A program made the position numbers and the translations under genes. A DNA stretch of 39,189 bases from a bacterium. GTDB lineage: Bacteria > RBG-13-66-14 > B26-G2 > WVWN01. Shown here one piece after another: positions 1-39,188 of this stretch. Within the stretch, counting starts at the first letter, position 1, and each line of letters starts with the position of its first letter. The DNA lies in NCBI GenBank assembly GCA_035529855.1, contig DATKVX010000054.1, positions 1 to 39,189 of the forward strand, in the 5' to 3' direction. Under the pieces are notes generated by a model. The model was not told where the DNA came from, did no database searches, and was given only the letters and a program-made list of their open reading frames with translations.

Positions 1-743
1 CCGACGGACGACGGCGTTACGCCGACGTTGGGCGGGCAGTGGACGCGGAAGACGTTGCCGTTGATATACGCGATGTAGAGGTATTCGCCGGAATACGCAA
101 TGCCGTAGGCGCCGCTCCAAGGCCCGGAGAAGGACGTCACGAGGGAGCCGGTGGTCGTTACGCCGTGGATAACGGCGCCGTTCATCCCGCCCCAGATGAT
201 CTGGTTACGCCAGTCGTAGGCTATGTCGTACATCATGCACGTGGAAGCGACCGAGAAAGAGCTCGTCAAGCTCCCCGTCGTGGCGTTGTAAACGTAGATC
301 CGGTCGGCGGAATAGTCCGAGACGAATATAGCGGTCGTCCCGGCGCCGCCGTCGCCGGTAGCCAGCGGGGCGCAGCCGTGAGAGTAGTTGGTCGGAGTAC
401 TGTACGAGGCGTAAATGCTCCCGTTGGCGGCGTTGGTCCTATATAGGAGGTAAGGGACGGCATAGGCCTTGCATTGCCAGAGGTAACCGGGGGCGGCGTA
501 CGCCAGGCCTCGGGTACTGCCGCCGCCGGCGTTCGCGAACGACGCTACGACCGAGCCGTTCAACGGGTTCGCGACCGTGATCCGGGACGCGCTGTAGTTA
601 CCCACGTAAAGGTACGTCCCGATACCCAGGCCGGCCTGGCCGCCTCCTGGAATGGGATACGAGCCGACGACGGTGCCTAGGTCACCGTACGCGGCGGCCG
701 CTACGCAGAGCGCGGCCAAGGTTGCTATTAACGCTTTCTTCAT
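1..743 (-). CDS. Secreted beta-propeller-like protein, C-terminus cut off by window edge
   Basis: The reading frame is open from an ATG at 743 to the window edge, giving 247 visible residues. It starts MKKALIATLAALCVAAAAYG, a clear Sec signal peptide with an AxA-like cleavage region near residue 20. The mature part repeats a blade-like signature, N/T-G-S-(V/L/I)-x-x-S-(F/Y), about every 45 residues (for example NGSVVASF, NGSIYASY, TGSLTSSF, TGSLVTSF). This is what a WD40/YVTN-type beta-propeller looks like. The visible end reads NVGVTPSSV, matching the tail of the neighbouring paralog, so only about 7-8 residues are probably missing. A strong SD (AAGGAGG, 751-757) precedes the ATG. Function is unknown; an extracellular or surface binding protein is inferred. 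Confidence 0.85.
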   Translation of the reverse strand, partial: MKKALIATLAALCVAAAAYGDLGTVVGSYPIPGGGQAGLGIGTYLYVGNYSASRITVANPLNGSVVASFANAGGGSTRGLAYAAPGYLWQCKAYAVPYLLYRTNAANGSIYASYSTPTNYSHGCAPLATGDGGAGTTAIFVSDYSADRIYVYNATTGSLTSSFSVASTCMMYDIAYDWRNQIIWGGMNGAVIHGVTTTGSLVTSFSGPWSGAYGIAYSGEYLYIAYINGNVFRVHCPPNVGVTPSSV

Positions 744-952: not shown

Positions 953-1714
953 TTACTTGAACACGGCCTTGATCTTACCCATCGAGGAGGGCGTGACGCC
1001 GACGGTGTTGGGGCAGTCGACGCGGTAGATATACTGGGTGGTAGCGCTGATATAGAGGTACTGGCTGTGATAGGCCATCCCGGCGTACGGGCCGTGGCCC
1101 GGCCACGAGAACGACGCCTTTACGGACCCGGTGGTGGTAATGCCGTATACGACGTTCGAGTTGTAGCGCCAGATGAGGCCGTTGCGGTGGTCGTAGGTGA
1201 TGTCCTGAAAGGACGAATTGGGCGCCGCGAAAGAGCTTATCAAGCTTCCGGTAGTATAGTGATGCCGCCAGAAGTAGCTGGGCGAGGAATCGCTGCAGTA
1301 CAAGGACGTCGCGCCCTCACCGCCGTCGCCGGTCTGGACGGCGGCGAGGCCCTGGGGGTCGTGGGCTACGGCCCAGGACGCGATAACCGACCCGGTACCG
1401 GAGTTGCAGCGATAGATGGTGTCGTTGGACCAACATCCCACGTAAACGTTATTGCCGAAGATGTACGCCAGGCCGCGGTTGCCGGTGTTGTACGGCGCCG
1501 GCCAAGAACCGGTCAAGGAACCGGTCGTGGGATTCAGGCGATATACCCGGTTTGGCGAGTTGTAATCCAGGACGAAGAGAACGCCGTTGGCCCGGGCCAG
1601 GCCGCGGGGTTGGGTGGCCGGCGCCCGAAAAGAACTTACGATATCGCCCAAAGCGCCGAAGGCGGTAGCGGCGCTGACGAGCGCCACGACGGTTATTAAA
1701 AACGTCTTTCGCAT
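953..1714 (-). CDS. Secreted beta-propeller-like protein with conserved C-terminal tail
   Basis: The 253-residue product begins with a Sec signal peptide (MRKTFLITVVALVSAATAFG). Blade-like repeats carry a T-G-S-(L/V)-x-x-S-(F/W) core: IVSSF near residue 25, then TGSLTGSW, TGSVIASW, TGSLISSF and TGSVKASF. This suggests a five- or six-bladed propeller. The protein ends GVTPSSMGKIKAVFK. A near-identical ending occurs in the gene at 38373 and is beginning in the gene at 1-743, although the middle parts differ a lot. The tail may be a sorting or anchoring signal; that is inference. The gene is monocistronic, with its own promoter (1780-1808) and terminator (905-931), and an AGGGGG-type SD precedes the ATG. 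No enzyme motif is visible. Confidence 0.9.
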   Translation of the reverse strand: MRKTFLITVVALVSAATAFGALGDIVSSFRAPATQPRGLARANGVLFVLDYNSPNRVYRLNPTTGSLTGSWPAPYNTGNRGLAYIFGNNVYVGCWSNDTIYRCNSGTGSVIASWAVAHDPQGLAAVQTGDGGEGATSLYCSDSSPSYFWRHHYTTGSLISSFAAPNSSFQDITYDHRNGLIWRYNSNVVYGITTTGSVKASFSWPGHGPYAGMAYHSQYLYISATTQYIYRVDCPNTVGVTPSSMGKIKAVFK

Positions 1715-8175: not shown

Positions 8176-8250
8176 GGTCCGCCCCTATTTTTTGGGGGCT
8201 AACGGTATAGGGCTTTCACGCGGCCCAGGCTCGCCGGCGTAGTTACAAAA

Positions 8251-38372: not shown

Positions 38373-39188
38373 ATGGGGAAGGAATACGTAAAATTAATAA
38401 CCGTCGGCGCCGCGTTGGCCGTCGCGGCCAACGTCGCTTACGGCGAGGTAGGGTCGGTGATAAGCTCCTTCAGAGTGAACGTATATTACCCTCCCGAAAT
38501 GACGACAGGCGTATACCGGGACGCGGCGTACGTATACATCGTAACGTACGATTACGGCGAAAACTTCTATCTGATCAGGTACACGCCGGACGGGACGAAG
38601 GCCGGCACTATCGGCCTCGGCTATCTTCCGTTTGGCCCGGCCCTTCTCCCTTACGGAGCGGACCACAGCGTGTCCGGCGCGGGATACGTATCTTTCTCGT
38701 TCGATGACGGTTATCTTCTTACGTACTCTACGTCGACGGGCTCCTTGGTAGAGTCAATCCAACGTGAGCCGTACTTCGACCAATACGCTTTCATACCCGG
38801 CGGGCGGAGTATTTATGTCGGCCTGGGTAGCGTCGTTTACCGTATGACGAGGGCGTGGAGCGTGGTAAATTCGTTCCCCTTCCAAGGATTCCTTGGGGCG
38901 GCTACGGAGGATTTTAACGGCGGCCACGGTCAATATATTATAACCGAAAGGTACGGTACCACCGCCTACGTCTACGCCGGCACGGGGTCGCTCGTTTCTA
39001 CTTTTTCCACGATACATTCGGGCAAGGACACGGTGTGCGGCCCGGGCTACCCCGCTTCTTACGGGACCACTTATTGGCGTTTCATTAATACCGCGTCGGA
39101 CTACGGGTGGTGCTACCAGATCGACCTCGGCGGCGCCACGGCCGTTGCGCCGGCGTCGTTGGGAAAGGTCAAAGCGCTTTTCCGGTAA
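38373..39188 (+). CDS. Secreted beta-propeller-like protein with conserved C-terminal tail
   Basis: The 271-residue protein has a signal peptide (MGKEYVKLITVGAALAVAANVAYG, cleavage near 24). Immediately after it comes EVGSVISSF, matching the start of the mature part in the two paralogs at the left end of the window. Blade-like cores are TGSLVESI, WSVVNSF and TGSLVSTF, with Tyr-rich strands (YVYIVTYDYG, YIITERYG). The C-terminus VAPASLGKVKALFR is the conserved tail shared with the gene at 953-1714, although the middle is only distantly similar. It is intact, with its own promoter and strong SD. The function is unknown; a surface or extracellular binding protein is inferred. Confidence 0.9.
   Translation: MGKEYVKLITVGAALAVAANVAYGEVGSVISSFRVNVYYPPEMTTGVYRDAAYVYIVTYDYGENFYLIRYTPDGTKAGTIGLGYLPFGPALLPYGADHSVSGAGYVSFSFDDGYLLTYSTSTGSLVESIQREPYFDQYAFIPGGRSIYVGLGSVVYRMTRAWSVVNSFPFQGFLGAATEDFNGGHGQYIITERYGTTAYVYAGTGSLVSTFSTIHSGKDTVCGPGYPASYGTTYWRFINTASDYGWCYQIDLGGATAVAPASLGKVKALFR

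Follow-up and report, generated by a model that had tools for sequence, protein, structure and literature searches.

About a hundred secreted proteins of quite different kinds in an uncultured bacterium, and many more in its relatives, end in the same 14-residue unfolded tail. In one protein family, this tail naturally takes the place of the known ~75-residue type A C-terminal domain (CTD) that serves as the address label of type 9 secretion (T9SS). Given its position at the stop codon, its spread over unrelated secreted proteins and its predicted disorder, we consider it very likely that the tail is a C-terminal sorting signal. We further suspect that it is a minimal T9SS signal, unnamed in Pfam or NCBIfam. 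This link is inferred, and we regard it as more likely than not.

The tail and the proteins that carry it

The window analyzed here (39,189 nucleotides) is a complete contig, C54, of a 2.62-Mb genome in 135 contigs (G000), which we infer from its genus mate to belong to Coatesbacteria. The features of interest are:

1..743 (-): secreted TGS-type beta-propeller protein, cut by the contig end inside the tail (...VGVTPSSV)
953..1714 (-): secreted beta-propeller protein (253 aa, signal peptide about 1-20) with the complete tail
956..997 (-): coding sequence of the 14-residue tail VTPSSMGKIKAVFK, with the stop codon at 953-955
38373..39188 (+): secreted propeller-like protein (271 aa) with the complete tail
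39144..39185 (+): coding sequence of the 14-residue tail VAPASLGKVKALFR
8199..8243 (-): orphan tail remnant (TTPASLGRVKALYR-stop) behind the terminator of the upstream gene, with no gene body left

An earlier note reported that the three propeller proteins share a near-identical start of the mature part and a near-identical end, and proposed that the end is a sorting or anchoring signal. The shared start, G-x-(V/I)-(V/I)-x-S-(F/Y), is real. The shared end is confirmed in the two intact genes, but in the gene at 1-743 the last ~8 residues are not visible, although the two leftover bases fit a Gly codon. The end of another contig (C2:3088-3222) encodes a stretch identical to the end of the window contig (38373-39189), so the two contigs probably join there.

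The phenomenon is far larger than the earlier note indicated. A genome search with one of the propeller genes gave about 40 relatives, and already in those loci the tail also closes unrelated ORFs, among them a cupredoxin. A DNA pattern for the last 8 residues plus stop (G-x-[IVM]-[KR]-A-x-[FY]-x-stop) finds 99 sites in the genome, against 0 for the reversed control. Although this pattern does not see the residues before the Gly, 91 of the 99 sites have Pro at -12 and 94 of 99 have Ser at -10, so the motif is one unit of about 14 residues, [AG]-V-x-P-[AT]-S-[LF]-G-[RK]-[VI]-[KR]-A-[LI]-[FY]-[RK]-stop. With a looser score, 116 tail ORFs were collected after four false positives were dropped. 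In these, conservation rises sharply at -15/-14 and stays high to the stop, whether or not propellers are included; however, these ORFs were chosen by tail score, and the Pro and Ser counts are the unbiased test.

With the tail removed, 93 longer proteins fall into 12 clusters: one of 63 propellers (NHL and TGS types), one of 16, one of 5 and nine single proteins. Pfam identifies NHL and PD40 propellers, cupredoxin, a Ycf48-like protein, an InhA-type MAM domain and, in relatives, a GDSL lipase. By a crude rule, 83 of the 93 have a Sec signal peptide; the ten others are borderline, truncated or interrupted by an in-frame UGA. Secreted tail proteins with an in-frame TGA (contig C82, locus L089; C96:4822-5331, L092; L141; L242 near 4027 and 4926; L374 near 2138 and 3028) include seven tandem genes on C82 and two relatives, mostly in a PF-x-G-C-TGA-G context, as well as thioredoxin-like T-A-T-W-TGA-G-Y-C-P proteins. 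A 7-bp hairpin about 20 nt after the TGA keeps pairing with compensatory changes, so these look like secreted selenoproteins.

The earlier note also considered that the tail could be the closing strand of the propeller, an alternative favored by the fact that three propellers in one window share it. This reading is refuted by the occurrence of the tail on at least 11 non-propeller clusters and by structure prediction. An AlphaFold2 model of the protein encoded at 953-1714 (8 sequences, mean pLDDT 75.6, pTM 0.77) is a propeller whose strands run from residue 24 to 233, with the shared start forming the first strand (residues 24-30). Residues 238-253 have no structure and pLDDT below 50 (25-33 in the tail). 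The closest solved folds are glutaminyl cyclases and NHL domains. A tail protein of the second cluster (mean pLDDT 80.1, pTM 0.76) is predicted to be a beta-sandwich, with residues 198-203 and 206-213 below 50. Because the carriers are soluble propellers, beta-sandwiches and a cupredoxin rather than barrels, it is very unlikely that the tail is an outer-membrane beta-barrel (BAM) signal, even though it ends aromatic-basic and barrel signals may typically end in an aromatic residue.

The tail could alternatively be a cationic peptide that fixes already exported proteins to LPS or other surface polymers without directing their export. It has three basic residues in the last seven, ends in Arg/Lys, and shows a weak helix at 204-211 in one model. 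However, the invariant Gly, Pro and Ser positions and the [LF]/[FY] choices are more specific than a charge anchor needs, and this reading does not explain exclusion of, and exchange with, the CTD (see below). We therefore consider it improbable.

Distribution in related lineages and association with REP-like repeats

Three other species of the genus have 149, 121 and 140 matches to the pattern, two other families of the class have 13 and 12, and a more distant family has 0-2, with a recognizable variant. A stricter pattern over the GTDB collection matched MAGs labelled Candidatus Coatesbacteria (CP070633) and Zixiibacteriota, plus one Krumholzibacteriia MAG. One Zixiibacteriota-labelled contig (L225) carries the same protein as G006, a genome placed in the window's genus, so those labels and the GTDB placement differ. 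In 78 genomes of the phylum of the Krumholzibacteriia MAG, Krumholzibacteriota, a pattern for [ST]-x-G-x-[IVM]-[KR]-x-x-[FY]-[KR]-stop gives 499 matches, against 10 for the reversed control, in 72 genomes. There the form is typically [ST]WGxIK[SAG][LM][FY][RK] (or, allowing Phe and Val, [ST]-[WF]-G-x-[IV]-K-[SAG]-[LM]-[FY]-[RK]-stop), on proteins with signal peptides.

Another reading is that the tail is a by-product of a mobile DNA repeat that carries this coding end around the genome. A minority of tails abut REP-like palindromes, and tail-coding fragments outside intact genes (G000 contigs C35:3417-3648, C96:11506-11650, C103:1383-1409 and C13:12532-12558) mostly abut such palindromes (GGGGCGACC..GGTCGCCC and ACAAGGGGCTTAAGCCCCTTGT). 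The repeat seems to have captured the end of tail genes and spread it. However, most tails are followed by ordinary terminators and use varied codons, and the tail ends at a stop codon in secreted proteins across two phyla with different codons. A repeat origin for all copies is thus rejected and very unlikely as a general account, although it may explain a minority of copies.

Relation to the type 9 secretion system

The best evidence that the tail and the type A CTD do the same job is a natural exchange between them. One secreted family, with no Pfam domain of its own, carries the CTD in G000 (L003, L114) and in a second species, G005 (L329), and the tail in a third, G003 (L362, two tandem genes). 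The proteins align over about 310 residues (E 1e-44 to 1e-64). The conserved domain ends ...NADEAM, followed in one case by PGDTGTVNIVPSSIGRVKALYK-stop and in the other by a linker and a complete CTD, so that tail and CTD start at the same boundary. An initial comparison with fewer CTD proteins found only a partial domain match, and only this one family shows a clear full-length swap. No protein had both signals: among 90 proteins with a C-terminal type A CTD in the loci examined none ends in the tail, and none of 80 tail proteins matches TIGR04183 or PF18962.

The earlier note's remark that the tail does not match T9SS tails is right for sequence models. The tail has 14 residues rather than ~75, no predicted fold (the CTD is an Ig-like beta-sandwich), no motif B and no upstream conserved part. 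Like the type A CTD, however, it occupies the extreme C-terminus of Sec-exported proteins of unrelated kinds. It resembles only the last strand of the CTD; the type A CTDs here end [RK][RK][LM]V[VI]x[RK], so both signals end basic-hydrophobic-basic. Published work indicates that this end is critical, as loss of the last two residues of RgpB leaves it in the periplasm and the HBP35 signal lies in its last 22 residues (PMC11285876). On the other hand, motif B mutation blocks RgpB secretion (PMC11969387), and the tail has no counterpart of this motif.

Shortened T9SS signals living beside long ones are known in Prevotella intermedia, but those CTDs have 43-55 residues, three strands and motifs B, D and E (PMC11969387). 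Type B CTDs have about 100 residues or more with five motifs, and type C CTDs have ~100 residues (PMC10202324, PMC12618676); type B uses its own shuttle proteins, and different signal classes use different PorV- or PorP-type shuttles (PMC12618676). PEP-CTERM, GlyGly-CTERM, MYXO-CTERM and LPXTG tails are also shared by many unrelated secreted proteins of one genome, but they have a motif, a transmembrane helix and a basic end. None of 237 tail proteins has a helix-like hydrophobic stretch (above 1.6 mean hydropathy over 19 residues) in the last 60 residues. In the open-licence literature searched, we found no paper naming this tail.

We suggest that, after Sec export, the C-terminal peptide may be recognized in the periplasm or SprA pore by a PorV-type carrier, followed by passage through the outer membrane and release or fixation. 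In this scenario, the tail would do alone what the folded type A CTD does in the same cells. If it is a T9SS signal, this bears directly on the open question of how one translocon recognizes different signals and which part of the CTD it reads (PMC10202324). It would also add about 100-150 exported proteins per genome to the predicted surface proteome of Coatesbacteria, which Pfam and NCBIfam currently do not flag, and would offer a compact export tag.

The alternative possibility is that the tail is the address label of a separate, undescribed outer-membrane route or transpeptidase, with its own receptor, spread over Coatesbacteria and Krumholzibacteriota and perhaps other FCB phyla and independent of the T9SS. 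The tail shares no detectable sequence with type A CTDs and lacks their fold, and its numbers vary independently of CTD numbers (99 tails and 29 CTDs here, 13 and 70 in G003, and 0-2 and 37-68 in the distant family). If correct, this would be a new sorting system in at least two phyla. Given the exchange at the same boundary, and that every tail-bearing genome searched matches SprA, we consider this possible but unlikely.

All 14 genomes of the window's phylum match the SprA translocon (12 over the cut-off), gingipain-like C25 peptidases, the PorV family and the type A CTD model. None of the 14 control genomes was over the cut-off for SprA, C25 or PorV, and one was over it for the CTD. In the window's own genome the SprA hits lie on a frame truncated at a contig end and stay below the cut-off. 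All 78 Krumholzibacteriota genomes also match SprA. Judged from these components alone, leaving the motor (GldL/PorL, GldM/PorM) aside, these bacteria very probably have a T9SS. Co-occurrence does not discriminate, however, because SprA is also present in six Krumholzibacteriota genomes where the tail pattern found nothing, and phylogenetic profiling of SprA against tails in this phylum gave nothing decisive. The four Krumholzibacteriota genomes whose SprA scores highest against the Bacteroidota model (G059, G039, G076 and G071) have 0, 1, 0 and 0 tails, which may reflect phylogeny or be a sign that the tail goes with a divergent SprA. PorV paralogue number (9-14 in most genomes) does not track tail number.

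On contig C49 of G000 a PorV-family gene lies next to a large C25 gene. A 600-residue protein in the same genome (C80:13087-14889, L032) has a divergent PorV-like barrel followed by TPR-like repeats and is encoded close to tail-bearing NHL genes. Similar long frames occur in relatives, and this protein is a candidate carrier for the tail. In G004 (C80, L193) and G006 (C76, L194) the sprA gene is flanked by NHL propeller genes on the opposite strand, although this may be chance, given ~100 such genes per genome.
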